Assembly (NCBI GenBank): GCA_015066445.1 | Contig: SVOK01000002.1 | Coordinates: 1-64,000 of the forward strand | Direction: 5' to 3' | Source: Oscillospiraceae bacterium | Lineage (GTDB): Bacteria; Bacillota; Clostridia; Oscillospirales; Acutalibacteraceae | DNA length: 64,000 nt | Program-made: the position numbers and the translations under genes | Shown here: piece after piece, positions 40,815-58,997 of the stretch | Layout: each line of letters starts with the position of its first letter | How positions within the stretch are numbered: the stretch's first letter is position 1 | The notes under the pieces: model-generated | Told to the model about the DNA's origin: nothing | The model's input: the letters and a program-made list of their open reading frames with translations, nothing else | Database searches by the model: none

Positions 40815-40826
40815 TTAACCTACTCT

Positions 40827-40864: not shown

Positions 40865-40932
40865 ATGTTTTGAAAGGATTATTTGTGTAAACAGTTCTTT
40901 CAAAGCAAAAAACAACAGAAAGGAAAAGCAAA

Positions 40933-42471: not shown

Positions 42472-43597
42472 TACCAAATTAAAGCAAAATCACGAGCCTC
42501 TTATACATATCACCAAGCGTGATGACAGCGGTTTTTGGAAATCGGCTTTGGTGCATTTAATAGGTATAGTTATAGCATTAATGCTCAGCAGCCTGCTTAT
42601 TATTGCAGTAACAGGTCAAAATCCGATGGCTCTTTTCAAATCAATGTATGAGGGTGTAATCGGAACTCCTATTGCAAATTCCGGAATAAATAAGAAGTAT
42701 GTTGAATCACTTCATATAGTTGCTATTCTGCTTTGCATATCCCTCGCAGTTACTCCTGCATTTAAAATGAAGTTCTGGAATATCGGTGCTGAGGGTCAGG
42801 TGCTTATGGGCTGTCTTGCATCAGCTTACTGTATGATAGAGTTCGGTGGAAAGATGGATAATACAGTTCTGCTTTTGGTTATGCTGGCGGCAAGTATTCT
42901 TGTGGGTGCTATCTGGGCTGTTATCCCTGCAATTTGCAAGGCTTTTTGGAACACTAATGAAACCCTGTTTACCCTTATGATGAACTATGTTGCTATGACT
43001 CTGGTTTCTTATTTTATTATGGTAAAAGATAAATCGGGCAGAAGCGACCTTGGTATTATCAACGAGCGTACTGGCTACGGTTATTTACCGAATTTATTTG
43101 AACGCAATTACATTTTTAATATTATAATTGTAGCGGCTGTTACTGTACTTATGTTTATATATCTTAAATACAGTAAACAGGGCTATGAGATTTCAGTTGT
43201 TGGTGAAAGTGAAAACACTGCAAGATATATAGGTATCAATGTTAAAAAGGTAATAATCAGAACAGTTGCTATCTCGGGCGCTATTTGCGGTCTTGTTGGC
43301 TTTATGATAATTGCGGGCGATAAGCATTCCATAAAAGACGATATCGTTGGCGGTCAGGGCTTTACAGCTATAATGGTTTCCTGGATGGCAGGCTTTAATC
43401 CTATAGTAATGATTCCCGTTTCAATGCTTATTGTTTTCCTTAGTGTTGGAAGTAAGTTTGCAACTTCTGCATTCAAGCTTGATAACAGTATCGGTGATAT
43501 TCTTACTGCTATAGTTATTTTCTCAATAATTGCTTGCGAATTCTTTATAAGATATAAGGTTAACTTCCGCAAAAGTGTAAAGGGGGATAAATCATGA
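42464..43597 (+). CDS. Nucleoside ABC importer permease (NupP-like)
   Basis: This 377-residue protein has about eight to ten membrane helices of the BPD_transp_2 family, with GAEGQVLMGCLA (about 108) and the coupling region EISVVGESENTARYIGINV (about 242). A GTG at 42455 is in frame but sits in the Shine-Dalgarno AAGGTG; the ATG at 42464 is chosen. It overlaps the ATPase gene by 8 bp and the second permease by 4 bp. Confidence 0.9.
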   Translation: MTDTKLKQNHEPLIHITKRDDSGFWKSALVHLIGIVIALMLSSLLIIAVTGQNPMALFKSMYEGVIGTPIANSGINKKYVESLHIVAILLCISLAVTPAFKMKFWNIGAEGQVLMGCLASAYCMIEFGGKMDNTVLLLVMLAASILVGAIWAVIPAICKAFWNTNETLFTLMMNYVAMTLVSYFIMVKDKSGRSDLGIINERTGYGYLPNLFERNYIFNIIIVAAVTVLMFIYLKYSKQGYEISVVGESENTARYIGINVKKVIIRTVAISGAICGLVGFMIIAGDKHSIKDDIVGGQGFTAIMVSWMAGFNPIVMIPVSMLIVFLSVGSKFATSAFKLDNSIGDILTAIVIFSIIACEFFIRYKVNFRKSVKGDKS

Positions 43598-44580
43598 GTT
43601 TTGCATTGATAATAGCATTTATCCAGCAGTCTATAAGACTTAGCTCCACCCTTTTGCTTGGCTCTACAGGTGAAATCTTAACCGAAAAGTCGGGTAACCT
43701 TAATCTTGGCACCCCCGGTATTATGGCAAGTGGCGCTATAAGCGGTATTATCGGCGCTTATTTTTACACAAAATCCTCGCTTCCGTTTAATCCCCTTATA
43801 AGTGTGCTTATCACAATGCTTTGTTGTATTGTCGGCGCATTATTGGTTTCGCTTATTTATTGTTTCTTAACTATCACTCTTAAAACCAACCAGAATGTTA
43901 CAGGTCTGGCTCTTACTACCTTTGGCGTTGGTATGAGTAATTTCGTGGGTAGTCTTATAAACAGTCAGATGGGCGGTACAGGTATTGCGGCTTTCCCTGA
44001 AATCGGTAAAGCTTACCGTGCAGCGTTACCTTTTGCCGATAAATTAGGAGTGTTCGGTGAGATATTCTTCTCTTACGGATTTATGACCTATCTCGCCATA
44101 GTGATAGCAGTTGCGGCAGGCATGATAATAACCAAAACCCGCATAGGACTTAATTTGCGTGCTGTTGGTGAGAACCCTGCAACAGCCGATGCGGCAGGTA
44201 TAAACGTTGGCCGTTATAAATATTTTGCCACCTGTATCGGTGGAATTATTTCGGGTCTTGGCGGTCTTTGTTACGTTATGGACTTTGCTGCGGCTAACTG
44301 GCAGAACAACATTCTTGATCAGTTTGGTTGGCTTGCAGTAGCGCTCGTAATCTTTGCGGTATGGAAGCCCAATATGGCAATTATAGGCTCAATTATATTC
44401 GGTGCTTTATATGTTGTCGGTTCTTTCTTGCCGAGTCTTACAACCAAGGACCAAAAGCTTCTTGAAATTTTGCCTTATGTTGTAACTATTGTAGTTCTTG
44501 TTATTATTAGTATGAGAAACAAGAAAGAAAATCAGCCTCCTGAAAGTTTGGGAATGTCTTATTTCAGAGAAGAAAGATAA
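43594..44580 (+). CDS. Nucleoside ABC importer permease (NupQ-like)
   Basis: This 328-residue BPD_transp_2-family permease is the second membrane subunit of the importer. Typical segments are STGEILTEKSGNLNLGTPGI (about 25-44) and the coupling loop LRAVGENPATADAAGINV (about 188). The ATGA overlap with the preceding gene shows coupled translation. A strong terminator follows, ending the purine salvage operon. Confidence 0.9.
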   Translation: MSFALIIAFIQQSIRLSSTLLLGSTGEILTEKSGNLNLGTPGIMASGAISGIIGAYFYTKSSLPFNPLISVLITMLCCIVGALLVSLIYCFLTITLKTNQNVTGLALTTFGVGMSNFVGSLINSQMGGTGIAAFPEIGKAYRAALPFADKLGVFGEIFFSYGFMTYLAIVIAVAAGMIITKTRIGLNLRAVGENPATADAAGINVGRYKYFATCIGGIISGLGGLCYVMDFAAANWQNNILDQFGWLAVALVIFAVWKPNMAIIGSIIFGALYVVGSFLPSLTTKDQKLLEILPYVVTIVVLVIISMRNKKENQPPESLGMSYFREER

Positions 44581-44585
44581 AATAT

Positions 44586-44624
44586 AAAATCAGCCTTTTT
44601 AATTCAAAAGGCTGATTTTTTTAA
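44586..44624 (+). terminator. Rho-independent terminator of the importer operon
   Basis: AAAATCAGCCTTTT and AAAAGGCTGATTTT form a 14-bp perfect stem with a 6-nt loop, followed by TTTAATTTTTT. Confidence 0.9.
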
Positions 44625-44691
44625 TTTTTTGCTTACATAAAAAGTTTTTATCTGTTAAAATATAAGTGAAAACAAAAAGACGGTGATATTT

Positions 44692-45186
44692 ATGTTTGCA
44701 AAGGGAGAAAAAATTGTATATGGCAACACCGGTGTTTGCTATATTGAGGATATCTGCGAAAAAGAGCTTATCCGAAATCAGAAAAAGCTTTATTATGTTT
44801 TAAAGCCGATTTATCAGCAAAATAATGTTATCTATGCCCCTGTGGAAAACGGCATGGTTGCTATGCGACCTGTTATGACGGCAGATGAGGCAGAGGCTTT
44901 GATTTCAAAAATACCTGAAATTAAAGAAAAAAATCCTTTGGTTAATCTTTCTGGTGAGGATTACCGCAACGAGCTTTCGGGTCACGAGTGTGCCGACCTT
45001 GTAAGGCTTACGTCAATAATTTATGAGAAAAAGAAAGCGGCACAGGCAAATAATAAAAAGCTGGGCTTTATTGATGAAAAATATATGCGTCTTGCAGAAA
45101 GTCTGCTTTTCGGTGAATTGGCAGTATCGCTTGATATTCCTTATGATGATGTACCTAAATATATAGAAAAGAAAATCAAAGCTTAA
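44692..45186 (+). CDS. CarD/CdnL-family RNA polymerase-binding regulator
   Basis: This 164-residue protein has the CarD/TRCF RNA-polymerase-interacting domain (about 1-60; FAKGEKIVYGNTGVC, YYVLKPIY) and a C-terminal helical DNA-contact domain. CarD proteins stabilise the open promoter complex, especially at rRNA promoters. The frame could begin at a GTG at 44683, but GGTGA at 44682-44686 is the ribosome binding site for the ATG at 44692. It is a single-gene unit ending at a bidirectional terminator. Confidence 0.88.
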   Translation: MFAKGEKIVYGNTGVCYIEDICEKELIRNQKKLYYVLKPIYQQNNVIYAPVENGMVAMRPVMTADEAEALISKIPEIKEKNPLVNLSGEDYRNELSGHECADLVRLTSIIYEKKKAAQANNKKLGFIDEKYMRLAESLLFGELAVSLDIPYDDVPKYIEKKIKA

Positions 45187-45223
45187 AAAAGCTCTGTTCG
45201 CTATATAGCGAGCAGAGCTTTTG
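45187..45223. terminator. Bidirectional terminator
   Basis: AAGCTCTG and CAGAGCTT, with inner TCGCTA/TAGCGA, form a long stem between the convergent CarD-like and amidohydrolase genes. T- and A-rich flanks are on both sides. Confidence 0.8.
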
Positions 45224-45227
45224 TTCA

Positions 45228-46022
45228 TTATTTTATTCCAAGCAATTTTTTCGCATTCTCTGAGGTTATTTTTTTCATATCTTCAGCCCTTAGCATCAGA
45301 TTATTCAAAAGCCGCATTTCCATTTCTGCAGTGTGCCAAGGGGTGTCTGTTCCAAAAAGAATTTTATCGGTACTGTGCTTTTCCAAGATTTTTTCGGCAT
45401 AGAACCTTGGGAGCATAGAGTATCCAAAGGACACATCAAAGTAAATATCCTTTCCGCAAAGCAGGTCTAAAACCCCCTGATTACAGTTAACTCCGCCCCA
45501 GTGAGCGGCAATTACAGGAGACTCAAACCAACTAAGCGCCTTTGCGAGCTTTTCGGGAGTGGCGCCGTATGGTGGGGGAAAACCGTAATCGAAGCCTGCG
45601 TGAAAAACTGTGATAAGACCTAAATCGGATATTTTTTTATAAATCGGCTTCATTTTTTCATCGTCAACATTAAAGCCTTGATAGTCTGGATGGAGCTTAA
45701 CACCTTTGAGTCCCAACGCTTTTATGCGCTCAAGCTCATAAAGAGCATCCTCGCTGTCGGGAAAAACTGAGCCAAAGGAAAAAATATCCTGACAGTTGTT
45801 AATGCTTGCAGCAAAATCGTTAACATTTTTTTGCTGATGCGCATTTGTTGCAATATTAAGAACAACCGAAGCGTCCACACCGCCTTCCTTCATTGAGCGG
45901 CGCAAGCCTTCTACAGTACCGTCGGTATGGTATTTGAGTCCGCCCGAAGCAAAGGAAAGCTTTTCAACCGCTTTTGCGGCTATTTTTTCAGGAAAACAGT
46001 GTGTATGAAAATCTATAAGCAT
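45228..46022 (-). CDS. Amidohydrolase family protein
   Basis: This 264-residue TIM-barrel metal-dependent hydrolase belongs to the Amidohydro_2 type. Metal ligands are visible as H6-T-H8 (DFHTHCF), H in VKLHPD (about 122), H in VFHAGFD (about 151), HWGG (about 182) and D in GTDTPW (about 237). Family members include decarboxylases and hydrolases of small organic acids; the substrate is not evident. It is transcribed leftwards. The outward promoter of the invertible segment at 46322-46350 currently points toward it, about 300 bp away. Confidence 0.83.
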   Translation of the reverse strand: MLIDFHTHCFPEKIAAKAVEKLSFASGGLKYHTDGTVEGLRRSMKEGGVDASVVLNIATNAHQQKNVNDFAASINNCQDIFSFGSVFPDSEDALYELERIKALGLKGVKLHPDYQGFNVDDEKMKPIYKKISDLGLITVFHAGFDYGFPPPYGATPEKLAKALSWFESPVIAAHWGGVNCNQGVLDLLCGKDIYFDVSFGYSMLPRFYAEKILEKHSTDKILFGTDTPWHTAEMEMRLLNNLMLRAEDMKKITSENAKKLLGIK

Positions 46023-46158
46023 TATAAAACCTCTTTAAGCGTTTATATAAGTCGATTATATTGTCTTGGACATAATAAAACTATATTCGTTATTATAATT
46101 TAAAACTCAGTTTTCGTCAATATGTTAGTTTATCCAACGTTTTTAACATTATGTAAAT

Positions 46159-46192
46159 AACCGACCCTGCTGAAAATTACAGTAGGGTCGGT
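46159..46192 (+). terminator. Hairpin between the amidohydrolase and the invertible segment
   Basis: AACCGACCCT and AGGGTCGGTT, with inner CTG/CAG, form a strong stem with an AAAATTA loop. A T-run (AAAATTTTTTATG) follows on the plus strand. On the minus strand the tail is less T-rich. It may partly block leftward transcripts leaving the invertible segment. Confidence 0.6.
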
Positions 46193-46235
46193 TAAAATTT
46201 TTTATGATTGTTTATATTAATAATTATAATTTATA

Positions 46236-46247
46236 TTGGCGTATGTG
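46236..46247. repeat. Left direct repeat outside the invertible segment
   Basis: TTGGCGTATGTG lies 2 bp outside the left inverted repeat. An 11-of-12 match, TTGGCGTATCTG, is at 47709-47720, outside the right inverted repeat in the same orientation. It could be a duplication left by insertion. Confidence 0.5.
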
Positions 46248-46249
46248 TT

Positions 46250-46272
46250 GTATAGAACTATAACTTCTAAAC
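46250..46272. repeat. Left 23-bp inverted repeat (recombination site)
   Basis: It is perfectly complementary to 47681-47703. Internally the site is itself nearly palindromic: arms GTATAGAA and TTCTAAAC (one mismatched pair) flank the 7-bp centre CTATAAC. This is the arm-spacer-arm form of a tyrosine recombinase core site. The asymmetric centre gives direction, so recombination between the two copies would invert the DNA between them. Confidence 0.85.
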
Positions 46273-46321
46273 AGCCCGATTTTGACAAAAAAGTATATTA
46301 TTCGAGCATTATAGATACCAT

Positions 46322-46350
46322 ATTATACCACCCTAAAATTTTTTTGTCAA
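46322..46350 (-). promoter_or_regulatory. Invertible consensus promoter
   Basis: On the minus strand TTGACA (46350-46345) and TATAAT (46327-46322) are exactly 17 bp apart, a perfect sigma-A consensus. Transcription would exit leftwards across the left inverted repeat 50 bp away. After inversion of the segment the -10 element would lie at about 47626-47631 and read rightwards into the gene starting at 47782, leaving a leader of roughly 140 nt with no obvious terminator. Confidence 0.8.
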
Positions 46351-46400
46351 TTGTATAAGCCGAATTTTTTAACTTTTTTCTTATTTTTTATTAATATTTT

Positions 46401-46429
46401 TTGAACATGCAAAGAAATGCGTATAGAAT
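46401..46429 (+). promoter_or_regulatory. Recombinase promoter
   Basis: TTGAAC (46401-46406) and TAGAAT (46424-46429) are 17 bp apart, about 60 bp before the recombinase ribosome binding site. It flips together with the gene, so recombinase expression does not depend on orientation. Confidence 0.55.
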
Positions 46430-46498
46430 TACAATTATTTATGGTCAGAAATTAGGGTCAACTTTGCTTGATGCCAATAACAGAAAGGAGATACATCT

Positions 46499-47611
46499 AT
46501 GTCAAGACGAGGGGACAATATACACAAAAGGAAAGACGGTCGATGGGAAGGAAGGTATAAAAATGGTGTAAAATCAAACGGCTCTGCAAAATACAGCTCT
46601 GTTTACGCACATTCTTATTCTGAATGTAAATCAAAGCTTTGGGAAGCTATGTTATATAGCCCAACTAAGATGATACAAAAATCCGATGTGAGATTTTCCG
46701 AAATTCTTTATAGATGGCTTTATTCCAACAGGATAAGGCTGAAAGGAGCTACCACAATTAAGTATAACAATATAATACAGTCACATATTATTCCTATCCT
46801 CGGGGGTATGAAAATTTCTGAAATTGATTCTGTGATAATCAACTCATTTTTAGAAAAAAAGCTATCCAGCGGAGGAATCAAACAAAACAAAGCCCTTTCC
46901 CCATCTTATGTAAAAACTATGGCGATTATTATTGAAGCAGCAATTAATTTTGCCGTTTTAGAAGGGTTGTGTAATCCTCTTAAAACCCCTATAAACAAAC
47001 CTACTGTTTCAAAAAAAGAGCTTAATGTGTTAAGTAAAATATCCGAAGAAAACTTAACTAAAATGCTTATTAAAGAAAATTCAAAGGTTGCATTGGGGGC
47101 ATTGTTGGCATTACAGGCAGGATTACGCATAGGAGAAGTATGTGCGTTACGTTGGAGAGATATAGAACTCGAAAACAATATAATTCATATTTACCATACG
47201 GTATCCCGTATTCCATCACCTGACAGCACACAAAAGACGCTGCTGGTACTGGATACTCCTAAAACTAATGCTTCCCGCAGAGACATTCCTATTCCTTTTA
47301 CACTTCACACAGCTTTATGTAACGCTTATAAATCGAAAAAATCCGAATTTGTTGTTTCAGATACTGTCTCCTTTGTGGGAACACGAACATTTGATTATAG
47401 ATACAAAAAAATGCTTAAAAAGAAAGGTATTCAAGCTATCCGCTTCCATACACTTAGACACACCTACGCTACGAGATGTGCAGAAGCAGGTATGGATGCC
47501 AAAACTTTAAGCAGGCTTTTAGGACATTCCTCCTCGACAATATCGCTTAATATCTACGTTCATCCGTCTATTGAGACCACAAAACAGCAAATAGAAGCGA
47601 TTTTTTCTTAA
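46499..47611 (+). CDS. Tyrosine recombinase (integrase/invertase)
   Basis: This 370-residue site-specific recombinase has an N-terminal basic domain with RRGDNIHKRKDGRWEGRY (AP2-like integrase DNA-binding motif), a central SAM-like core-binding domain (about 65-165) and a catalytic domain. Catalytic residues can be read as R210 (QAGLRIGE), K255 (TPKTNASR), H317-xx-R320 (FHTLRH), H343 (LLGHSS) and nucleophile Y353 (NIYVH), so it looks active. It follows AAAGGAG by 8 nt. The gene lies wholly inside a pair of perfect inverted repeats and no phage or conjugation genes are near, which favours a local DNA inverter over a prophage or ICE integrase. Confidence 0.92.
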   Translation: MSRRGDNIHKRKDGRWEGRYKNGVKSNGSAKYSSVYAHSYSECKSKLWEAMLYSPTKMIQKSDVRFSEILYRWLYSNRIRLKGATTIKYNNIIQSHIIPILGGMKISEIDSVIINSFLEKKLSSGGIKQNKALSPSYVKTMAIIIEAAINFAVLEGLCNPLKTPINKPTVSKKELNVLSKISEENLTKMLIKENSKVALGALLALQAGLRIGEVCALRWRDIELENNIIHIYHTVSRIPSPDSTQKTLLVLDTPKTNASRRDIPIPFTLHTALCNAYKSKKSEFVVSDTVSFVGTRTFDYRYKKMLKKKGIQAIRFHTLRHTYATRCAEAGMDAKTLSRLLGHSSSTISLNIYVHPSIETTKQQIEAIFS

Positions 47612-47680
47612 CTGAAAATGGTCAAAAATGTGGTCAAAAAATACTGGAAGCCAAACAATATCCGACTTTCCTTATTTTTT

Positions 47681-47703
47681 GTTTAGAAGTTATAGTTCTA
47701 TAC
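47681..47703. repeat. Right 23-bp inverted repeat (recombination site)
   Basis: Exact reverse complement of the left repeat at 46250-46272. It lies 69 bp after the recombinase stop and 78 bp before the start of the downstream protease gene. Confidence 0.85.
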
Positions 47704-47708
47704 TGATT

Positions 47709-47720
47709 TTGGCGTATCTG
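47709..47720. repeat. Right direct repeat outside the invertible segment
   Basis: TTGGCGTATCTG matches 11 of 12 bases of 46236-46247 in direct orientation, 5 bp outside the right inverted repeat. Confidence 0.5.
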
Positions 47721-47781
47721 CGGTGTGAACGGTTGAAACCGATTACATAATAAAATACAAATTCAATGCGGAGGAGTAAAA

Positions 47782-49476
47782 ATGAAAATCACAGAAACCA
47801 AGAGAATCCGCCTTTTAGGCCGCATTCTCGCAATCGCAATGGCAGTATGCTTAATTTTTAGCATGGCTGTTACAGCAAACGCTGCTACTGTTAATCAGGC
47901 AGTAACAAGCGCAAAAGATGGCGTTGTTCAGATTCAGGTTTGGTTTAACGACCCTGAAACAGCATCTGAAGAACCCCTTCACTACGGCACAGGCTTCCTT
48001 GTAAACGATACAACGGTTGTAACCTGTCAGCATGTAGTTACAGCTTTCCCTGATGAGTTCTATGTAGCATGGGCAAAAGAAACCGAACGTACAGCAGAGC
48101 AGGTTAAGGAATGCCTCGAACTTCGTGTTATGCTTTATCGCGGAACTTATGTTAAGGCAAAGCTCACCAATTCAAACGCTGAGTTGGATTTAGCTGTTTT
48201 AACCTTGAACCAGAAAATCGCTCGTACACCTTTAGCAGTTCGTAGCAGTGATGAGCTTAAGCAGACCGAGGAAGTATTTGCAATCGGTTTCCCTGCTGAC
48301 CTTCTTGATTTAGATGACAAGCAGACCTATGATATCGACGATATTGCTATCACCAGTGGTAATGCTAATAAGGTTGGCGATATGACCTTTAGAACCATTG
48401 AAGGTCACCTTTATGATAGCGTAAACTGCATCGAGAGCAGCGCTCGTATTTCGGGTGGAAACTCCGGCGGTCCTTTGGTTGATAAGGATGGTAAGGTTGT
48501 AGGTGTTAATGCTGCAGGCAGTGATACAAGCTTTATCGCTGTAAGTAGTAAAGAGCTTATCACATACTTAACAGCTCTTAATATTGATTATAGTGGCAAC
48601 AGCGCTTCTGTTGTTACCCCTGACGTTGAAGAGCCCGATGCAGAGGGCGAAGCACTCGATACCAGCAAATTAGAAAGCTTGATTTCTGATGCAGAGGAAA
48701 AGAATGCTGCTGAGTATACCGAAGATTCTTATAAAGCTTTAGAGGACGCTCTTGAAGATGCAGAGGATGCTTTATCCGCTGAATCTCAGGACGAAATTGA
48801 TTCTGCTGCTGACGAGCTTAAGTCTGCTATCAGAGGCTTAGTAGAAGCTAAGGGCGGCTCAATGATGGATAAGTATGCATTAATTGGTGTTATTGCTGTT
48901 GTAGCAGTAATTATCATTGGTGTAGTTGTTGTACTTATCGTTGTTCTTAGCAAAAAGAAGAAGGTTCCTGCAGCTCCCCAGGCCCCTGTAGCTCCTGTAG
49001 CTCCCCAGGCCCCTGTAGCTCCCGTAGCTCCCGTTGTTCCTCAGGCTCCCGCAGCTCCCGTAGCTCCCCAGGCTCCTAAGGCTCCTGTTTCTGCTGAAAC
49101 CACAGTTCTTTCACAGGGCGCAGGCGAAACCACAGTTCTTTCACAGGGTGCAGGCGAAACTACAGTTCTTTCTCAGGCTGTAAACGGCGGTTCACTTGTT
49201 CGCACCAGCAATAACGAGCGTATCCCGATTACTGCTGCTGAGTTTACTATCGGCAGAGAGCGCAGCAATGTTGACTACTGTGTAGGCGGTAACTCCAACA
49301 TCAGCCGTGTTCATGCAAGATTTATTGTTCGTGACGGCGCTACCTACATTGTTGACAATAAGGCTGCTAACGGCACCTTCGTAAACGGTGTAAAGGTACG
49401 TGCAGGTCAGGAAGTTGAGCTCAAGAACGGTGACAAGGTTCTTCTTGCAGACGAGAAGTTTGAGTTTAACAAATAA
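47782..49476 (+). CDS. Membrane-anchored trypsin-like protease with cytoplasmic FHA domain
   Basis: This is a 564-residue modular protein. It has a signal peptide (about 10-34) and an extracytoplasmic HtrA-like serine protease domain with triad H84 (TCQHVV), D136 (ELDLAV) and S228 (GGNSGGP). A helical FIVAR-like segment (about 294-355) and a transmembrane helix (about 366-390) follow. The cytoplasmic part has a Pro/Ala-rich linker (395-436), three ETTVLSQ repeats (439-465) and a C-terminal FHA domain (about 472-564) with GR491-492, S509-x-x-H (SRVHA) and NGTFVNG. The FHA domain binds phosphothreonine, so it likely docks TTVL motifs phosphorylated by the operon's kinase. GGAGG precedes the ATG. 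It is the first gene after the invertible segment. Confidence 0.9.
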   Translation: MKITETKRIRLLGRILAIAMAVCLIFSMAVTANAATVNQAVTSAKDGVVQIQVWFNDPETASEEPLHYGTGFLVNDTTVVTCQHVVTAFPDEFYVAWAKETERTAEQVKECLELRVMLYRGTYVKAKLTNSNAELDLAVLTLNQKIARTPLAVRSSDELKQTEEVFAIGFPADLLDLDDKQTYDIDDIAITSGNANKVGDMTFRTIEGHLYDSVNCIESSARISGGNSGGPLVDKDGKVVGVNAAGSDTSFIAVSSKELITYLTALNIDYSGNSASVVTPDVEEPDAEGEALDTSKLESLISDAEEKNAAEYTEDSYKALEDALEDAEDALSAESQDEIDSAADELKSAIRGLVEAKGGSMMDKYALIGVIAVVAVIIIGVVVVLIVVLSKKKKVPAAPQAPVAPVAPQAPVAPVAPVVPQAPAAPVAPQAPKAPVSAETTVLSQGAGETTVLSQGAGETTVLSQAVNGGSLVRTSNNERIPITAAEFTIGRERSNVDYCVGGNSNISRVHARFIVRDGATYIVDNKAANGTFVNGVKVRAGQEVELKNGDKVLLADEKFEFNK

Positions 49477-49498
49477 TCGGCATTGAATTTAATTATAT

Positions 49499-49529
49499 AG
49501 AACAAGGGCGGGTTTTCCGCCTTTGTTCT
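49499..49529 (+). terminator. Intercistronic hairpin
   Basis: AGAACAAGGGCGG and CCGCCTTTGTTCT form a 13-bp stem (one G-T pair) with a GTTTT loop. No T-run follows, so it is more likely a processing or stability stem than a terminator, which keeps the protease and the downstream genes in one operon. Confidence 0.5.
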
Positions 49530-49595
49530 ATTGCCGCTTAATGGTATCTTGTAAAAAGTTATTTATTAATTTGAAAGTTCAAGGGGTTGCAATAT

Positions 49596-50363
49596 ATGGA
49601 TTTTATTGTTTCGGCTACAACCGATATCGGTATAGTAAAGGATACTAATCAGGACGGCTTGTCCGTTAAGGTTATAAATACACCGCAGGGTAAAATGACC
49701 TTTGCAATTCTTTGTGACGGTATGGGTGGTCTTGCTAAGGGTGAGGTCGCAAGCACCACAGTTATCGCAGCATTCAATGACTGGGTACATCAGCAGTTGC
49801 CTGTATTATGCAAGGCGCCTATTGAAGATTCGGTTATAAGAAGTCAATGGGAGAATATTGTTGTGAGCCAGAATAATATTATCAAGGCTTACGGTGCAAG
49901 ACAGGGTATAAGACTTGGCACCACCATTGTTGTAATGTTGCTTACTCAAACGAGATACTACATTTTAAATATAGGCGATTCCCGAGCTTATGAAATTTCT
50001 GATACACTTCATCAGCTGACAGTTGACCAGACCTTTGTTGCAAACGAAATAAGAATGGGCCGTATGACGCCTGAACAGGCTAAGGTTGACCCAAGAAGAA
50101 ATGTTTTGTTGCAATGTGTCGGGGCATCCGAAGATGTATATCCTGATATGTTTTTCGGAGATGTCAAGAAGGATGCAGTATATATGATGTGTTCTGACGG
50201 TTTCAGACACGAAATAACACCTGATGAAATATATGAGAAATTTCATCCGAACGTTTTAATAAGCGCAGATGCTATGGATAACAGCGCAAGGCAGTTAATT
50301 GAATTAAATAAGCAACGTGCAGAGCGAGATAATATATCTGTATTGCTTATAAGAACATATTAA
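49596..50363 (+). CDS. PP2C-family protein phosphatase
   Basis: This 255-residue Ser/Thr phosphatase is of the PrpC/Stp class. Metal-binding motifs are visible: TNQDG (about 20), LCDGMGG (about 43), GDSR (about 124) and MCSDGF (about 191), with a late D in RDNIS. The frame has a TTG at 49587, but AAGGGG at 49581-49586 points to the ATG at 49596. It precedes the kinase by 11 bp. As in PknB/Stp pairs, it should reverse the kinase's phosphorylation, including that of the TTVL motifs. Confidence 0.92.
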   Translation: MDFIVSATTDIGIVKDTNQDGLSVKVINTPQGKMTFAILCDGMGGLAKGEVASTTVIAAFNDWVHQQLPVLCKAPIEDSVIRSQWENIVVSQNNIIKAYGARQGIRLGTTIVVMLLTQTRYYILNIGDSRAYEISDTLHQLTVDQTFVANEIRMGRMTPEQAKVDPRRNVLLQCVGASEDVYPDMFFGDVKKDAVYMMCSDGFRHEITPDEIYEKFHPNVLISADAMDNSARQLIELNKQRAERDNISVLLIRTY

Positions 50364-50374
50364 GGGGTGGCGGT

Positions 50375-52054
50375 ATGTTAGAAGTAGGTTCACTCGTTGA
50401 CGGAAAATACAAAATACTGAATAAAGTCGGTCAAGGCGGTATGAGCGTTGTTTATCTCGCCATGAACGAAAGAGCAAATAAGCAATGGGCGGTAAAGGAA
50501 GTTCGTAAGGACGGTGTTCTGGACTTTGAATCTGTAAAGCAGGGTCTGGTTGCTGAGACTGATATACTAAAAAGATTAAGTCATCCTCATTTGCCAAGTA
50601 TTGTAGACGTTATTGATACTGATGATTCATTTATTATTATAATGGATTATGTTCAGGGTAACTCTCTTGATAAAGCGCTTAAGGAGTTTGGCGCTCAGCC
50701 TCAGGAGGAAGTTATTGAATGGTCCAAGCAACTTTGTGATGTTTTAGGATATTTACATACAAGACAGCCTGCAATTATTTACCGTGATATGAAGCCGGCT
50801 AATGTAATGCTTAAACCTGATGGTAATATTTCACTTATCGACTTTGGTACTGCTCGTGAGCATAAGGCTTCTAAAGTAGAGGATACCACCTGCCTCGGTA
50901 CACGTGGATATGCTGCTCCTGAGCAATATGGCGGTATGGGTCAGACAGATGCCCGAACTGATATTTATTGCTTGGGCGCTACTATATATCATCTTGTAAC
51001 AGGTATGAACCCGAGTCAGCCTCCTTATGAGATACGTCCTATAACCGAAATTAACCCTGCTCTTTCAACAGGTCTTGAAAAAATTATTACCAAATGTACT
51101 CAAAACAACCCTGCGGACAGATATCAATCCTGTGCAGAGCTCATGTACGATCTGGAGCATTATAAAGATTTTGAAGATGAGCATATAAGACAACAAAGAA
51201 ACAAATTAAAGCTATTTGTTTCTTCGGTAGCTTTAACTGTTGTTTTTGCGGCTGTGTCTGTTTGGGCACTTTTATCCGGTCAGGCAGCCAAAAGTGCTGA
51301 CTATGATGTAAGATTAGGTAAGGCGGACAATGTTCAGGCATATTATGATACCATTTTGGTTGATCCAACCCGCACTGAAGCTTATATCGGAATTGAAAAT
51401 ACTGATACGATGGGCTTGATAGATTTTCTTATTGACGACGGTGAACTTTCTGCTGACGATAATAAGGTGCTTTCAACCCTTAGTGTGGCTCTTGATGACA
51501 ACTCGGGTAAATATACCAAATCTGTCGATGTTCTGGAGAAGCTTAAAGATAGCAATCCGGAGGGTTATAAGCAAGTATGCTATGAAATCGGCGAAACCTA
51601 TATTTTCTATTACAATGTAGGTGTTGAAAAGGATAAATATCAGGCTGCTTCTACCTGGCTTAAGGAAACGGTTGATGATTATCCTGTTGCAAAAATTTAT
51701 TGTGATATTTCAAGCTCCTTGCAAAACATTGATAAATATGTAAAGGCTGAGCAGACTGCAAAGCTTTATGAGGAATTTGAAAACCTTTGGGGCGAGGTTG
51801 AAACCCTGCACGATGAGGTTGCAGATTCTGAAGATGACCTTAAAATCCATGTTTGGAATGCCATAGTTAGTATGATAAATTCCAACTGTAAGGAGTTTTG
51901 CGAGGTTGCCTCCAAAAACGAGCTTAAATCTATGTTAAATAAGATTTCTGCTGAGACGAAGACTATAACCAACACTTTCCTTAAAGATAAAATTGCGGAA
52001 TTACAGTCAAATACAGAAATAACAGTATCAAAAATAGATACTGTTAAGGATTAA
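50375..52054 (+). CDS. Transmembrane Ser/Thr protein kinase
   Basis: This 559-residue protein has an N-terminal Hanks-type kinase domain (about 12-265). The glycine loop is VGQGGMSVVY (18-27), the ATP lysine K41 is in AVKE, the catalytic YRDMKPAN has D138, DFG is at 156-158, and the activation segment ends in GYAAPEQ. A membrane helix (279-301) is followed by about 255 extracytoplasmic residues of helical, TPR-like character in place of PASTA repeats. A cell-wall muropeptide sensor of the PknB type is therefore unlikely; the ligand is unknown. It lies between the PP2C gene and a membrane protein with TTVL repeats, its probable substrate. Confidence 0.93.
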   Translation: MLEVGSLVDGKYKILNKVGQGGMSVVYLAMNERANKQWAVKEVRKDGVLDFESVKQGLVAETDILKRLSHPHLPSIVDVIDTDDSFIIIMDYVQGNSLDKALKEFGAQPQEEVIEWSKQLCDVLGYLHTRQPAIIYRDMKPANVMLKPDGNISLIDFGTAREHKASKVEDTTCLGTRGYAAPEQYGGMGQTDARTDIYCLGATIYHLVTGMNPSQPPYEIRPITEINPALSTGLEKIITKCTQNNPADRYQSCAELMYDLEHYKDFEDEHIRQQRNKLKLFVSSVALTVVFAAVSVWALLSGQAAKSADYDVRLGKADNVQAYYDTILVDPTRTEAYIGIENTDTMGLIDFLIDDGELSADDNKVLSTLSVALDDNSGKYTKSVDVLEKLKDSNPEGYKQVCYEIGETYIFYYNVGVEKDKYQAASTWLKETVDDYPVAKIYCDISSSLQNIDKYVKAEQTAKLYEEFENLWGEVETLHDEVADSEDDLKIHVWNAIVSMINSNCKEFCEVASKNELKSMLNKISAETKTITNTFLKDKIAELQSNTEITVSKIDTVKD

Positions 52055-52069
52055 TAGGGGGTGCAGGAT

Positions 52070-52639
52070 ATGTCGTATGATATTTATAATTACATTTTCA
52101 TCGGTTCTCTTGTTCTCGCTATTGTAATGCTTGCCGTTACAGTTTTGTTGTATTTTGTTTTAAATATCAAAGGTGCTATCGGCGATGTTACGGGTAAGAC
52201 TAAGCGCAAGGCTATAGAAGATATTCATAATACCAGTGCTGCGGCATCTACCAGACTCAAGAAAACAACAAAGAAAACTTATAATCCTGAAGATTTGTCT
52301 GAGTCAGCAAGATTAGCTGCCGAATCGGTTGAAACTTCTAAAATCAGTGTTCAGGACCGCTTTGATCACTTTGAAGCAGGTCAGACCACAGCTCTTGATA
52401 CAGAGGAAGCTTCTGCCACAACAGTTTTAAGCAATGAGAATGCCGGAACAACAATTCTTAATAACACAGCTTCTGAAACAACGGTATTAAGTGATAACGG
52501 CTCAACGGATACAACCGTTCTTGATAATAGTATTGCTTCTGAAACTACTGTACTTGGTGTTGCATCAAACGAAGCAGATCCCGATTTTGTTATCGAAATA
52601 GATATCACCTATGTTCATTCAAATGAGGTAATACGATGA
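52070..52639 (+). CDS. Membrane protein with a TTVL-repeat cytoplasmic tail
   Basis: This 189-residue protein has one N-terminal membrane helix (about 9-33) and a basic juxtamembrane stretch (41-70). Its tail has six TT-[A/V/I]-L motifs near residues 106, 117, 127, 137, 148 and 159, spaced 10-11 apart. The same ETTVL unit occurs three times in the protease-FHA protein. These look like multi-site kinase phospho-acceptors that FHA domains read. The frame starts with a GTG at 52061 within the GGGGGTG ribosome-binding stretch; the ATG at 52070 is preferred. It overlaps the next gene by 4 bp. No known family recognised. Confidence 0.75.
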   Translation: MSYDIYNYIFIGSLVLAIVMLAVTVLLYFVLNIKGAIGDVTGKTKRKAIEDIHNTSAAASTRLKKTTKKTYNPEDLSESARLAAESVETSKISVQDRFDHFEAGQTTALDTEEASATTVLSNENAGTTILNNTASETTVLSDNGSTDTTVLDNSIASETTVLGVASNEADPDFVIEIDITYVHSNEVIR

Positions 52640-53109
52640 GAATCGTTTCTCGATTTTCGTGGGATCTGACTATAATGATTGTAGGCTCTGCGGTTTCATC
52701 CGTTTCTTTTATAGCGGCTATTCTTGAGGGAGAAACCTTAACATCACGGATAATTAAAATTCTGTGCGCATTGTTGTTTTGGTCGGGTCTTGCTGTCGAA
52801 CAGATTTTTATGTGGAAGGCTAACAAAAGACGTTTAAAAATTGAAAGCATTGTATCAGGCAGAAGAATTACGGGAATGTCAGGTATATTCTCGTTTCTTA
52901 AGACCGAGTTTGGTTTTTTCACAGATGCAACATTAGCGATTTCGTTAATTACCTATATTGTTTTGGTAATAGGTAATTGGGGAGAAAATGTTGCGCAATA
53001 TATTTTCTTGTTTTTGATAGTTTTATCGTTTCGCTTACACTGTATAGCAAACGGAAAAAACTATAGATATAAACTTTATTTGCAGAAAAGGAGAGCAGAT
53101 GATGATTAG
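52636..53109 (+). CDS. Hypothetical small membrane protein
   Basis: This 157-residue protein has about four membrane helices (about 10-30, 37-55, 95-113 and 117-135) and basic loops. I do not recognise the family. Both ends overlap neighbours: the start by 4 bp with the TTVL-repeat gene and the end by 8-11 bp with the large surface-protein gene. It is thus firmly part of the operon and may assist assembly of the surface protein or of the kinase complex. Confidence 0.65.
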   Translation: MRIVSRFSWDLTIMIVGSAVSSVSFIAAILEGETLTSRIIKILCALLFWSGLAVEQIFMWKANKRRLKIESIVSGRRITGMSGIFSFLKTEFGFFTDATLAISLITYIVLVIGNWGENVAQYIFLFLIVLSFRLHCIANGKNYRYKLYLQKRRADDD

Positions 53110-56100
53110 TTCAAAATTTAGATTGAGTAATCGTGTACTGGCAATAGTTTTATCAGTATTAATGCTGGTTGCTATGCTGCCGGTGGGCTTGTTCACTATG
53201 GCACTTGATGAGTCTAACCCCAGCGTTATAACTACTGATATTAACACAAAAACATTTAATGTTGGTACTACAACCGAGTTTACCTTTACTACTACAGGTA
53301 ACGGCGATGCAGGTACTATGGTATTGGGCTCTTTTGAGTTCTTAGATGCCAACGGTAACGATGCCAAATATGCTATCGACAGCCTTCAATACTTGGAGGT
53401 TCAGTCAGGCAATTGGTTTGAGTTTTACGGTGACTTCGGTCCTGCCGCAACAGGTTTCGAGTTGCAGGCGGCTGCCACCACAAGCACTTTCAAAGTTACC
53501 TTTAATAAAGCCGGCACATATACCGTTACAGGTTTTGTAAAGGAATTTGGCACAGAAAACAGATTGTGCTCTGTTGTGGCTGATGTAACTGTATACGGCA
53601 CAAGCACTCTTACCACCACTATAGCTGACAGTCACTATGTTGTTGGCAGACAGAAGGAATTCACCTTTACAACAGTAGCTAATACCGATGCAGGCGCTAT
53701 GGTATTAGGTTCGTTCGAATTCCTTGACGGTGAGGGCAATGATGCTGCAAGTGCAGTTGAAAAGCTTGAATACTTAGAAGTTCAGTCAGGCAATTGGTTT
53801 GAGTTTTACGGTGACTTCGGTCCTGCCACAACTGGTTTCCCTCTCACCGATGCCACAAGCCGTTTCCGTGTTACCTTTGCTAAAGATGGTAATTATGTTG
53901 TTAACGCTTGTATGAAAACCTTTGCTGAGGGCACAGTTTTGTGTGCTGTTACTAAGGATATAACAGTAAAAGCACAGGCTGTTCTTACTACTGATGTTGA
54001 TACCAAGGAATTCGTATATAATAAGGCTACTGAATTCACATTTACCACCACCGCTAACGGTGATGCAGATACTATGGTTTTCGGAACATTTGAATTAGCC
54101 GATTCTGAAGGTAACGATGCTTCATCGGCTATTGCAAAGCTTGAATACAAGGAATCTAAGGACGGTAATTGGTATCCCTTTACAGGTGATTTTGGCCCTG
54201 TAGGTACAGGTTTCCCCCTTACAGATGCTACAAGTAACTTCCGTGTCACCTTTAATAAAACAGGTAGCTTTAAGCTCACAGCTTCTATGGTGACTGCTGA
54301 TGACAGAGCTGTAATCTGCTCAAAGACAGATGATATTACTGTTATTAATGCTGACATTGTTATTGATGATATTACATTATCTATCGCAGACAAAGACGCA
54401 GATGGTAACGCAGATAGATTTGTATTTACCGAAAATAAGCTTTACACAGTTGAAGAGCTTATTTCTGTTACAGGCACAGAGAACGGTGACGAAATTCTCT
54501 ACAGCTTAACAGGTCAGGACGGCACTTTCTTGCCTGCCGACCAATTCAAGCTTATTGAGGATTCCGCAATTACTGCTACTCCTGCAGGCAATTATAATAT
54601 TTATGTAATGATTAAGCGTCAGTATCATAACAATGCTATTCTTGTACCCAAGCCTATTACTGTAACTATTGAAAAGGCTACAATTGCTGAAGGGGATATC
54701 ACTATAAAGGGTTATTCTGCTACTTATGATAAGGAAGAACACAATATTGTTGACTCCATTTCAAGCATTGATTCCCGTGATACCTTTACCTTTGCAAAGC
54801 CCAACGAAACTACATTTGATAATGAAATCAAGGTAACAAATGTTGCTGAGAGCGGCAAGTATATTGCAAGAGTTTACAGAGATGACAACTATGAGACTTT
54901 AGATATTGAATTCGACGTTGTAATCGAAAAGGCTCAATTAATTGTTTACTTTGAAGATACCGAAGATGTTACCTATAAGGAAGACAATTATTTTAAGTAT
55001 GAAATTGAAAAAATCTGCGGTATTGATGAAAATGGCGATGAATTTTTAGCTGACGATGTAACACATACTCCTATTTTCTCAACCGATAGCACTTTTGCTT
55101 CTGTTGCGGCTGACGGTACTGTTACATACACCTCTGTTGGAGATATTACCGTAAAGGCAACTCTTAACGATGTTTATGATAACTATAAGGTTACCAACGG
55201 TACTATGGACAGCTATAAGGTTAATGTTTATAACGTTAATCCTCCTGCCTGGTTAGTTACCGGTCCCGATAAGTACACTGCAAACTCAATTGACTGGTAT
55301 AGCGGTAAGAGCAATGTAATTATTGCTGAGAACGATAATGATGCTAAATGGTATATCATTGAGAGCAGTAATGCTTTAGGTCAGAATGGCTGGGCGGATA
55401 CTATTGAAAAGACCGCAGAGCAGATGTATACCGATGTTAAAATAGCATTTAAGAACGCTGCTGGTGAAATTACTGCTTTAATTGATGTTCCTACATTTGC
55501 TATTGATAATTCTGCTCCCACAATTCCTGATAAGGGTATTAAGTTCGAGCAGAAAAACGGCACTACTTTTGCTAATGTGCTTAATTTCCTCACCTTCGGT
55601 TTATTCTTCAATGAAACACTTGAAGTAACCGTTACAGCAGAAGATTTTATTGATACCAATGTAGCAGGCTCAGGTACATATAAATATGCTTTAACTTTCT
55701 ACGATGAAAACGGCACAGAGGTTAAAGCTACAGACGAGCAAACAAGCAATGTTTTCAAAATTGATTATGACGAGCTTGAAAACTTCAAGGGTACTGTAAA
55801 AATCACCTTAAGAGACAATGTTGATAATGTTGAAACTTACGATATTACAGTAGATAATTCTAATCTCGTTGAAATAAATGAAGAAATTGAATTTATGCTT
55901 GAGAACGATGCGCCTGTAATCGGCGATATTACTCCTGCAAACGGTTCAATACACAAAAATGATTTCAGCTTCAAATTCTCTATCAGCGATATAATCGACG
56001 GTAAGGAATATCATTCTGATATTAATTCTGTTAAAGTTACCGTTAACGGAGAAACAGTTTTAAAGACCGATTATAATATGGCTATGTCACAGGACGACTA

Positions 56101-58987
56101 TGAACTCCCTGTTGATATATTAGCGAGAGGCATAAACGGTGTAGGTCTTACTAATTGGAATAACGGTGTGCTCGAAATTAAGGTTAATGCTTATGACAAT
56201 GCAGGCAATAAGGCTGTAGAAAAGACTTCTGTGGTTTACACAGACCAGACAGCTCCCGTTATTAAGGGCTTTGATTTCAGCCTTACCAATAATATAGATG
56301 TGGAAAAAGAAGATGGCATTTTCAAGGCAGTTTCTGTTGAAGACTATGGCTTCTACTTCAAGCAGGATGTGGTTGTTACAATCACTGCTGAAGATTTAGT
56401 CGATTCTGACGAAACCAAGGCTTCTGGTGTTAAGAGCATAACCTATAAGGCTGTTGATATAAATGGCGAGGTTAAGTACGAGGGCACACAGAATGGTGAT
56501 AAAGCTGAATTTACCATTAAGGCTGAAGAAAACTTCAAAGGTCAGATTTATGCTTACGCTACCGATAACGTTGGCAATACTCCTAATGACTGTGTAGATT
56601 GCCTTGATGACAAAGTAATTAAAACAGGTGATTATAAGGGATTTGTTCATCCTAACGGCTCTATAGTTGAAAGCGCTAAAAAGCATAATGACACTTCTGA
56701 TATAGCTATCGATGCTCCTGATAAGGTTGACACTCAGAACAATGCTTTCAAATTTAATTATAAGGGCACCGCTGAGTCTATTGACAAAACCAAGGATTAC
56801 GATGATACCCAGAAGGTTCCGCTTTACAGCTATGCTGATGGTATCGTATTTAAGGTAAACGTTAAGGATACATATTCAGGTATTCGTAGCGTTAAGTGGA
56901 CTGTATTTGAGGGCGAGGACGGCGCTGTCGCAATCGAAAAGACAGTTAAAGTAAATAATGAAGGTATACTTGAAGGCGATAAGGACGAATGGACTATCGT
57001 ACCTGATGAAGAAAACGACACAAATCTTGTTTACAATATTACCGGTGAGCTTACAGTAAAGGGCAACCATAACAATATGGCACTTCTTATTGAGCTTACT
57101 GACCGTGCAGGTAACACAAGCTATGATTACTATGTATTCGGTATTGATGCTACTGCTCCTGTTATTAAGGTTGAATACAACGATGACAAGGCTAAGAATG
57201 ACACCGAATATACCGACCACTTCAGCACAGACCGTACTGCTACTATTACTATAACAGAGCGTAACTTCAGAGCAGAAGATGTGGTATTTGCTATTACAAA
57301 TACTGATAAGGTTATTCCTGCTATTGATTTAACCGATTCTAAGGTTTGGACAGAAAAGGTTGATAAGAACGATCTTGACAAAACTACATATACTGCTACA
57401 ATAAGCTACACTGCAGATGGTGATTACACCTTTGAAATTTCTTATACCGATAATGCAGGTAATAAGAATAAGGATGTAGATTATGGCAAGTCCATCGCTC
57501 CTACAAAGTTTACAATTGATAAGACTTTGCCTACTCTTACTGTTGAGTATGATAACAATTCTGCTCAGAACGGTAACTACTATAAGGCACAGCGTATCGC
57601 TACCATTACTATTGTTGAGCACAATTTCGATGCTAACCGTGTAAAGATTATTGGTACAACTACTGAGGCAGCTTATCCCACACTCAGCGCTTGGACCGAC
57701 AATGGCGATACTCATACAGCAACTATTACTTATGCTGACGATTCCAAGTACACTCTCGATATCGAGTTCAATGACAAAGCAGGAAACAGTATTGCTGATT
57801 TCGCAGTTCAGGAATTCACAGTAGATAAAACAAATCCCACACTTGCAATTTCGGGTATTGTTGATAATTCTGCAAATGCTGATGAGGGTAACATAGGATT
57901 CGTTGTAACTGCAACAGATACAAACTATAATGGATTCGCTCCTGTTTTGACTGCTGTAGTTATGAATGAGGGCAGCTTCGAGATTAAGGAACTTACCATC
58001 GGCAGTACAGAGGATATTGCAAACGGACAGAGATATACTGTTACTAATATTGATACTGACGGTATCTACAGTATTACCTGTACACTTGTTGATAAAGCAG
58101 GCAATGCTTACAGCGAGGTAATATTAGAGGATGCTAACGGAAAAACTTATATTGAGAAGCGTGCAGCAGGCACAAAGCTTGTAACCTTCTCTGTAAACCG
58201 TAACGGTTCTGTATTTACACTCGATACCTATACACAGGATCTTGTAAAAGAGTACTATGTAAAGAACGTTGAGAAAGAAGTAACAATTATCGAAATTAAT
58301 GCTGACCCCATTAAGGAACACAGCGTAACTCTTAACGGTAAGGCTCTTGTAGAGAATACAGATTATACAGTTAAACTTGCAAACGGTGAAGGCTCTTGGT
58401 ATAAGTATTCTTATGTTCTCAATACCAAGCTTTTCGAAAAAGAAGGCGAGTATAACATAATCGTTTCTTCAAGAGATAAGGCTAATAACGAAGCTTTCAG
58501 TGATATCAAAGATGTAACTGTTAAGTTTGTAGTAGACAGAACCGCTCCTATCGTTACGGTTGCTGGTCTTAAGAAGGACGGTAGATACCAGATAGACAAA
58601 CAGAAGGTAACACTTGTTCCTTCTGATGACGGTGGTTCATTAAAATCTCTTATCGTTCGTACTGTGGATAAAGACGGCAAAAAAATCAAGGAGCTTCTTA
58701 ACCTTTCAGGTGAGGCACTTGAAGAGGCTTTAGCTGCAGGTAGCATTACCTTTGAGCTTGGTCAGGGACTCTATCAGAACGTTCAGATTATCTGTGAAGA
58801 CCATGCAGGTAACATCAGCGGTTCTACCGACAATGACGTTTATGATAATGTTTCAATTTCCACAAATGGATTTATGATTTTCTGGGCAAACAGAGGCTTG
58901 CGTTGGGGTTGTATTGCAGGCGTTGCACTCTTAGCAGCAGCAATTGTTATCTTTATAATACTCAAAAAACGTAAAGCAAATTCATAA
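53102..58987 (+). CDS. Giant Ig-like repeat surface protein
   Basis: This protein has about 1961 residues. A signal peptide (about 10-35) is followed by three tandem N-terminal repeats of about 125 residues (about 40-165, 166-290, 291-415; shared words EFTFTT and GDFGP). Next come MBG/Ig-like beta-sandwich domains and then a row of bacterial Ig-like modules that begin with DxTAPxI or DKTLPTL phrases. A membrane helix (about 1932-1954) and basic tail KKRKANS close it. It lacks LPXTG and is therefore held by the helix, not by sortase. A role as adhesin or cell-surface stalk is inferred. ATG codons exist at 53099 and 53102; the GGAG at 53090-53093 favours 53102. The gene ends at a strong terminator. 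Confidence 0.85.
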   Translation: MISSKFRLSNRVLAIVLSVLMLVAMLPVGLFTMALDESNPSVITTDINTKTFNVGTTTEFTFTTTGNGDAGTMVLGSFEFLDANGNDAKYAIDSLQYLEVQSGNWFEFYGDFGPAATGFELQAAATTSTFKVTFNKAGTYTVTGFVKEFGTENRLCSVVADVTVYGTSTLTTTIADSHYVVGRQKEFTFTTVANTDAGAMVLGSFEFLDGEGNDAASAVEKLEYLEVQSGNWFEFYGDFGPATTGFPLTDATSRFRVTFAKDGNYVVNACMKTFAEGTVLCAVTKDITVKAQAVLTTDVDTKEFVYNKATEFTFTTTANGDADTMVFGTFELADSEGNDASSAIAKLEYKESKDGNWYPFTGDFGPVGTGFPLTDATSNFRVTFNKTGSFKLTASMVTADDRAVICSKTDDITVINADIVIDDITLSIADKDADGNADRFVFTENKLYTVEELISVTGTENGDEILYSLTGQDGTFLPADQFKLIEDSAITATPAGNYNIYVMIKRQYHNNAILVPKPITVTIEKATIAEGDITIKGYSATYDKEEHNIVDSISSIDSRDTFTFAKPNETTFDNEIKVTNVAESGKYIARVYRDDNYETLDIEFDVVIEKAQLIVYFEDTEDVTYKEDNYFKYEIEKICGIDENGDEFLADDVTHTPIFSTDSTFASVAADGTVTYTSVGDITVKATLNDVYDNYKVTNGTMDSYKVNVYNVNPPAWLVTGPDKYTANSIDWYSGKSNVIIAENDNDAKWYIIESSNALGQNGWADTIEKTAEQMYTDVKIAFKNAAGEITALIDVPTFAIDNSAPTIPDKGIKFEQKNGTTFANVLNFLTFGLFFNETLEVTVTAEDFIDTNVAGSGTYKYALTFYDENGTEVKATDEQTSNVFKIDYDELENFKGTVKITLRDNVDNVETYDITVDNSNLVEINEEIEFMLENDAPVIGDITPANGSIHKNDFSFKFSISDIIDGKEYHSDINSVKVTVNGETVLKTDYNMAMSQDDYELPVDILARGINGVGLTNWNNGVLEIKVNAYDNAGNKAVEKTSVVYTDQTAPVIKGFDFSLTNNIDVEKEDGIFKAVSVEDYGFYFKQDVVVTITAEDLVDSDETKASGVKSITYKAVDINGEVKYEGTQNGDKAEFTIKAEENFKGQIYAYATDNVGNTPNDCVDCLDDKVIKTGDYKGFVHPNGSIVESAKKHNDTSDIAIDAPDKVDTQNNAFKFNYKGTAESIDKTKDYDDTQKVPLYSYADGIVFKVNVKDTYSGIRSVKWTVFEGEDGAVAIEKTVKVNNEGILEGDKDEWTIVPDEENDTNLVYNITGELTVKGNHNNMALLIELTDRAGNTSYDYYVFGIDATAPVIKVEYNDDKAKNDTEYTDHFSTDRTATITITERNFRAEDVVFAITNTDKVIPAIDLTDSKVWTEKVDKNDLDKTTYTATISYTADGDYTFEISYTDNAGNKNKDVDYGKSIAPTKFTIDKTLPTLTVEYDNNSAQNGNYYKAQRIATITIVEHNFDANRVKIIGTTTEAAYPTLSAWTDNGDTHTATITYADDSKYTLDIEFNDKAGNSIADFAVQEFTVDKTNPTLAISGIVDNSANADEGNIGFVVTATDTNYNGFAPVLTAVVMNEGSFEIKELTIGSTEDIANGQRYTVTNIDTDGIYSITCTLVDKAGNAYSEVILEDANGKTYIEKRAAGTKLVTFSVNRNGSVFTLDTYTQDLVKEYYVKNVEKEVTIIEINADPIKEHSVTLNGKALVENTDYTVKLANGEGSWYKYSYVLNTKLFEKEGEYNIIVSSRDKANNEAFSDIKDVTVKFVVDRTAPIVTVAGLKKDGRYQIDKQKVTLVPSDDGGSLKSLIVRTVDKDGKKIKELLNLSGEALEEALAAGSITFELGQGLYQNVQIICEDHAGNISGSTDNDVYDNVSISTNGFMIFWANRGLRWGCIAGVALLAAAIVIFIILKKRKANS

Positions 58988-58997
58988 TGAAATAACA

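Follow-up and report, generated by a model that had tools for sequence, protein, structure and literature searches.

Introduction

When the asymmetric centre of a tyrosine recombinase core site is inverted between two copies of the site, exchange between them yields inversion of the intervening DNA. In the RecV switches of C. difficile and in fimS of E. coli, the recombinase gene lies outside the flipping DNA, whereas in the Hin switch of Salmonella both the recombinase gene and an outward promoter lie inside the flipping segment, and the enzyme is a serine recombinase. Pilus, secretion, kinase/phosphatase, sugar transferase, LRR and SLH genes are the kind of target usually found under phase variation.

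According to one account, recombinases are occasionally located within an invertible segment, and the example it gives is Hin (PMC5903667). Another describes PsrA of S. pneumoniae as a tyrosine recombinase encoded inside the cod locus that it rearranges (PMC7096588), and in a third an arm-binding domain is tied to mobile elements (PMC8138268). A survey that sought invertases within 5 kb gives the median number of invertons per genome as 3 for the Clostridia-like members of its community (PMC11892184). Surveys that look for short promoter segments with an outside invertase may overlook elements that carry their own enzyme. In the open literature that we searched, no Clostridia family is described in which a tyrosine recombinase rides within the invertible promoter segment that it would flip, though papers elsewhere may exist.

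Here we describe a candidate for such a segment in a stretch of 64,000 nt, hereafter the window (positions 1-64,000 of the forward strand of contig SVOK01000002.1, assembly GCA_015066445.1, Oscillospiraceae bacterium). Its features (Table 1) and their counterparts in other genomes lead us to read it, with a probability of roughly 80%, as a self-contained promoter-inversion cassette that would act as an ON/OFF switch for the operon at 47782, and that would be OFF in the present assembly.

Table 1. Features of the putative switch and its neighbours, in window coordinates
Feature	Position	Strand	Remarks
Divergent amidohydrolase	45228..46022	-	Faced by the promoter in the present orientation; not regarded as the target
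Left inverted repeat / recombination core site	46250..46273	+	8-nt arms, 7-nt centre CTATAAC
Outward promoter	46322..46350	-	TTGACA-17-TATAAT, TG before -10; directed leftward and outward
Candidate arm-type site pair, left end	46442..46460	+	TGGTCA 46442, GGGTCA 46455; putative function
Tyrosine recombinase	46499..47611	+	370 aa; nearest solved relative is the Int protein of 6emy
Candidate arm-type site pair, right end	47619..47636	+	TGGTCA 47619 and 47631; putative function; direction as left pair
Weak hairpin before the right repeat	47635..47681	+	T-rich 3' arm; -8.3 kcal/mol for 47612-47690
Right inverted repeat / recombination core site	47680..47703	-	
Trypsin-like protease (HtrA-like) with FHA domain	47782..49476	+	564 aa; first gene of the putative target operon
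PP2C-type phosphatase	49587..50363	+	Putative target operon
Ser/Thr protein kinase	50375..52054	+	Putative target operon
Rest of the probable operon	52061..58987	+	Two proteins of no known family (192 and 157 aa) and one of 1962 aa with a weak Ig-like match

Results

A recombinase gene enclosed by inverted core sites

The segment measures 1454 bp (about 1.45 kb) with both repeats included, and 1406 bp separate the arms. The original prediction had described perfect inverted repeats of 23 bp; they are perfect, and their length is really 24 bp. Its 8-nt arms around a 7-nt asymmetric centre hold, with 7 of 8 arm positions complementary, and a palindrome scan gives the core site as GTATAGAA-CTATAAC-TTCTAAAC. 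Other perfect inverted 18-mer pairs with arms hundreds of bases apart, within 5 kb, are absent from the window, with the sole exception of a short palindrome that recurs near 28.5 and 29.0 kb. In that region (28485-29030) lie copies of TGTTTCACGTGAAACA, a palindrome which we take to be the ParB/Noc-type parS consensus and which may mark a region near the origin. Just outside both inverted repeats, at 46233-46247 and 47706-47720, is a 15-nt imperfect direct repeat (87% alike, with a TTGGCGTAT core), which we considered as a target duplication and rejected, as it has no family-wide counterpart. The element is present once in the genome (42 contigs), where the remaining recombinase matches are distant, and an Rfam scan of window positions 40000-60000 gave no match.

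As had been predicted, the repeats enclose a single open reading frame for a tyrosine recombinase with a full catalytic set: R210, K255, H317, R320, H343 and Y353 are invariant in an alignment of eight rows. Pfam recognizes a Phage_integrase domain (3e-24) and a SAM-like core-binding domain (1.2e-10), and the best match of solved structure is the Int of 6emy (8.8e-30, profile positions 130-368), named 'Int protein' by its depositor and presumably Tn1549 Int. A short conserved N-terminal part precedes the core-binding domain, and in the same alignment its first 20 residues are strikingly conserved. Five N-termini gave no relevant Pfam match and the window's own gave no solved-structure match; two relatives have weak AP2 matches (0.031 and 0.37).

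The perfect left-pointing promoter claimed for the left end is there, and it is the only 12/12 site on either strand of the 64-kb window; it points away from the operon at 47782. That operon belongs to a + strand gene run starting 79 bp beyond the right repeat. Were the segment flipped, the promoter would end 151 nt 5' of the operon's ATG, and in the relative L004, which is assembled ON, the distance from promoter to start is likewise 151 nt (4853 to 4702). Before the operon is a weak 9/12 promoter-like site (47733-47761), and the operon may therefore not depend wholly on the promoter of the element. The hairpin before the right repeat was called as a terminator by neither of two scans. Left of the element, a strong terminator-like hairpin with a T-run lies on the + strand at 46158-46194, with no + strand gene directly before it.

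We propose that the recombinase would recognize the two inverted core sites, with arm sites inside the two ends probably keeping them together, and that the whole 1454-bp segment, recombinase gene included, would then flip, such that the promoter fires into the 47782 operon (ON) or away from it (OFF, the present form). This supposes that it is this recombinase that flips the segment, that the arm motifs bind it, that the operon depends on the promoter, and that flipping takes place in living populations.

The layout recurs around related recombinases

To the window and seven relatives (L004-L010) we added 120 fetched stretches, which are part of the listed places with weaker matches left out, giving 128 loci with related recombinases, nearly all of which score at least about 290 bits (L200, 236). 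Inverted repeats scoring at least 15 surround 104 of the 128, compared with 1 of 384 first-order Markov shuffles. Nine of the 24 loci without a detected repeat lie within 700 bp of a contig end. By the same method, repeats were found in 0 of 28 loci with recombinases below 235 bits, several of which overlap; the control locus L031 showed a perfect 15-nt inverted match when 1200 bp on each side were scanned, and none within the 600 bp used for counting. In each of L004-L010 (33 to 59% identical to the window's recombinase), an inverted repeat flanks the gene at similar positions; L011 (25% identical and excluded from the 128), the last of the eight relatives first found, has no inverted repeat. 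Core-site centres, where a palindrome scan found clear arms (54 loci), are 5 nt in 26 loci, 7 nt in 23, and 6 or 8 nt in 5.

The promoter recurs with the repeats. Counted over the repeat-bearing loci (104, or 103, for promoters, arm motifs and terminators alike), an outward-left promoter of at least 11/12 lies inside the left repeat in 54 of 104 and is 12/12 in 35, leaving 50 with no outward promoter of 11/12 or better. Controls gave 0 of 104 in shuffled copies, 0 of 104 for the right end reading outward, 1 for the left end reading inward, and 3 of 101 outside the left repeat. At the left end, a 12/12 promoter directed outward is present in all six relatives at 52-59% identity and missing in L009. 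A 51% relative in a genome of the window's genus (L016) has repeats matching at 20 of 21 positions and an 11/12 promoter.

Two further features recur inside the ends. Paired NSGTCA motifs 11-13 bp apart occur at the left end of 46 of the 104 loci, at the right end of 41, and at both ends of 24; their median distance to the repeat is about 153 bp at the left end and 52 bp at the right. They share direction at the two ends, with 0 on the other strand and 0 in shuffles, and we suggest that they may be arm-type sites of the recombinase. A terminator-like hairpin stands between the recombinase and the right repeat in 36 of 103 members, with 6 expected from shuffles, and 25 are terminator-like on the opposite strand too. 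Such a hairpin could block recombinase transcription from entering the target in the OFF state.

When genomes were searched with a profile, 115 of 394 in the order and 59 of 391 in the class had a match at E <= 1e-60, counts that include lower-scoring integrases without the layout. One member with 20-bp repeats and a 12/12 promoter (L262:4858-6154) resides on plasmid pRUMAL02 of the cultured Ruminococcus albus 7; downstream of it are a second integrase and a gene with a helicase-associated domain. In viral contigs, a single-protein scan found no relatives, and an alignment search found 31 loci, 4 of 18 examined having repeats and an 11/12 outward promoter (L266, L269, L270 and L282), so that phages may carry the switch or prophages may harbour it. 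The viral contigs L264 and L265 come from two data sets; they match exactly over 9434 bp and show no repeat. A phage collection holds relatives in 9 records. At L162 (about 6157-7847, the same element as L092:1115-2805) the inverted repeats reach 166 bp, 155 of them alike, and so extend beyond the core site; perhaps target sequence has been duplicated at both ends.

The gene types of the window's right-hand operon recur beside the element in 8 loci, the window included. This operon type is rare, and its first protein is found at E <= 1e-60 in 7 of 398 genomes of the family. Among those 7, the switch is present in the three of highest identity (the window and two at 56%), and the other four (36-49% identity) have no switch within 1.5 kb. 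A Pfam scan that covered some 18 neighbours of elements adds a signal peptidase accompanied by a member of the camelysin family, an FtsK-FHA protein, a helicase, a sugar transferase, UDP-galactopyranose mutase, MMPL, LRR/dockerin, an SLH-peptidase and a large DUF7601 protein. Tad pilus genes define a group of seven loci, on the right in every one, L110 among them having no detected repeat. The names SipW, EssC and Tad go partly past the Pfam matches and are presumptive; in the window's own genome, the EssC-like gene gave a distant match only. In the near-identical loci L119, L120 and L121, from three genomes, the element and its left flank are identical, and an erm(B)-like methyltransferase is encoded by the second gene past the right end. 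L005 (4142-4702), L006 (6245-6820) and L008 (6321-6827) each have, on the far side of the element, a small gene that is directed towards it and whose product has no known family; relative to this gene, the element occurs in opposite orientations.

The same operons are found on either side of the element

We draw the recombinase rightward and the promoter leftward, such that a target on the right is OFF and one on the left is ON. Both orientations, which the original prediction proposed to look for in related genomes, are found: the window-type operon stands OFF, to the right, in the window, L005 and L010, and ON, to the left, in L004; for a related FHA/PP2C/kinase operon the side is left in L007 but right in L098 and L104. 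The operon flanks of L004 and L010 are 73% identical over 2520 bp, starting 18 and 30 bp outside the repeat, and their elements align in their own sense at 72% over 1364 bp; these alignments show an element inverted in situ with respect to the operon. Shared targets also lie on opposite sides for the FtsK-FHA (EssC-like) gene (L006/L008 versus L103), the SipW-like group (L105/L107 versus L125), L133 versus L179 and L185, and L205 versus L206, L208 and L209. These contrasts are seen between species and between paralogous loci. L208, in the same genome as its sister L205 (element 82% identical), has no clear repeat pair and may be a locked switch.

Across the 104 loci, an outward gene stands on the right only (OFF) in 35, on the left only (ON) in 18, on both sides in 25 and on neither in 7, and 19 meet a contig edge. 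We could label the orientation of 83 loci, 65 of them by a target common to another locus, with three near-copies dropped for the tree test, and parsimony on the recombinase tree requires 19 changes of orientation (81 labelled loci, 28 ON). Since the promoter is directed towards orthologous operons in some species and away from them in others, the segment inverts over evolution. The proposed invertible promoter switch, seen OFF with the 47782 operon as its target, is thus supported by a layout common to many loci and by orthologous operons that lie on opposite sides of it in different species.

Alternative readings of the locus

The segment could instead be a cassette that inverts now and then in evolution, with its orientation fixed in each lineage and no phase variation within populations, which we regard as unlikely though worth weighing. 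It would account for the shared orientation within all 10 independent sets of elements whose DNA is at least 85% identical (one set, L193/L212, has no detected repeat, so flipping there could not be expected). Crossings appear only at 82% identity or below, in 4 of 15 pairs at 70-83% and 11 of 16 pairs below 70%, these pairs not being independent. Orientation is also mildly inherited on the tree, since 300 label shuffles give 23.3 +- 1.9 changes against the 19 observed (P 0.037). Enterococcus raffinosus megaplasmid records, whose recombinases are 34-35% identical to the window's, likewise show no strain-level flip (4, 3 and 2 records at three loci, the two-record locus including one partial match); a fifth record matches the first locus only in part. 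Against such fixity stand the 19 changes on the tree by parsimony. Also against it, 89 of 97 core differences in 28 compared pairs are common to both repeat copies of an element, a figure biased by the picking of repeats for likeness, and 18 contig ends fall within 400 bp of elements where 3.9 are expected (120 loci), as mixed orientation would cause and multi-copy repeats could too. Because close relatives and strains share orientation, the comparisons do not support rapid random ON/OFF switching. Either flipping is slow or strongly biased, or the assemblies show a common dominant state.

That the segment is a one-gene mobile element, IS-like or a miniature of Tn916, whose repeats are transposon ends and whose promoter drives neighbours by happenstance, we consider improbable. 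The 6emy Int is its recombinase's nearest solved relative, several matches occur in some genomes, and related recombinases adjoin different operons (L099, a Tad locus, groups with the window, with a support of only 35). Yet the element has no cargo and, as a family rule, no target duplication, the two flanks of a locus, over 99 loci, matching in direct orientation no better than mismatched flanks do (mean 5.68 versus 5.60). Conservative tyrosine integration leaves whole core-site copies direct, and here they are inverted. In an excised circle, moreover, the promoter would run antisense to the recombinase and so would not be a circle-activated int promoter. A search for an empty site through amidohydrolase synteny in the genus covered 11 loci, whose neighbours differ, and none was informative. 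Slightly more doubtful still is the idea that the present orientation is the active one, the promoter serving the amidohydrolase and the right operon being independent. The promoter does point at this gene, which begins 228 bp beyond the left repeat. The amidohydrolase, however, has its own 11/12 promoter-like site (46120-46092) and clusters with no gene adjoining any other element, whereas the right-operon gene types do recur. A degenerate integrase between chance repeats is hardly credible given the family-wide layout and the intact catalytic residues.

Discussion

With relatives in other gut bacteria that stand in both orientations before the same surface and signalling genes, the promoter-inversion cassette looks like a portable self-flipping on/off switch. 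We lean, with some reserve, towards a wider reading, in which the window would belong to a widespread and undescribed family of one-gene promoter-inversion cassettes in Clostridia, with further members on megaplasmids of Enterococcus and in a small number of viral contigs, and made from arm-binding Tn916-type integrases. Core sites that are inverted rather than direct, together with arm sites inside both ends, would turn excision into a reversible flip, and a consensus promoter, a recombinase and often a terminator would form a portable module placed before pilus, secretion, fibre, capsule and kinase operons.

If this is true, many clostridial gut bacteria carry self-sufficient on/off switches before pilus, fibre, secretion, capsule and signalling genes, and the order of core sites alone can make a gene switch of a mobile-element integrase. 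It would also provide a compact and portable inversion module for study, including in R. albus 7, a cultured rumen bacterium.

The RecV switches and fimS likewise have inverted sites around a promoter, a tyrosine recombinase and surface or signalling targets, and the window differs from them in that its recombinase lies inside the flipping DNA, in a segment of about 1.4 kb. The likeness to Hin noted in the original prediction holds for the layout and fails for the enzyme, which is of the tyrosine type and has core sites of another form. PsrA, in S. pneumoniae cod, swaps hsdS coding sequences, whereas the window's element carries a promoter; psrA itself reportedly lies inside the flipped stretch. 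The window's element resembles the IntTn916 subgroup (Tn916, Tn1549) in the nearest solved relative of its recombinase, the 6emy Int, in a small conserved N-terminal part before the core-binding domain and in candidate paired arm sites inside both ends. The candidate arm sites and the similarity to Tn1549 Int suggest that the enzyme is a Tn916-type integrase that has become an invertase. By its core match, the recombinase is a relative of the integrases of this subgroup, and it is not classed with their mobile elements because cargo and target duplication are absent. Unlike those of Tn916 and Tn1549, core sites of the window's type are inverted, and such an element, with no cargo and no target duplication, should flip instead of excise.
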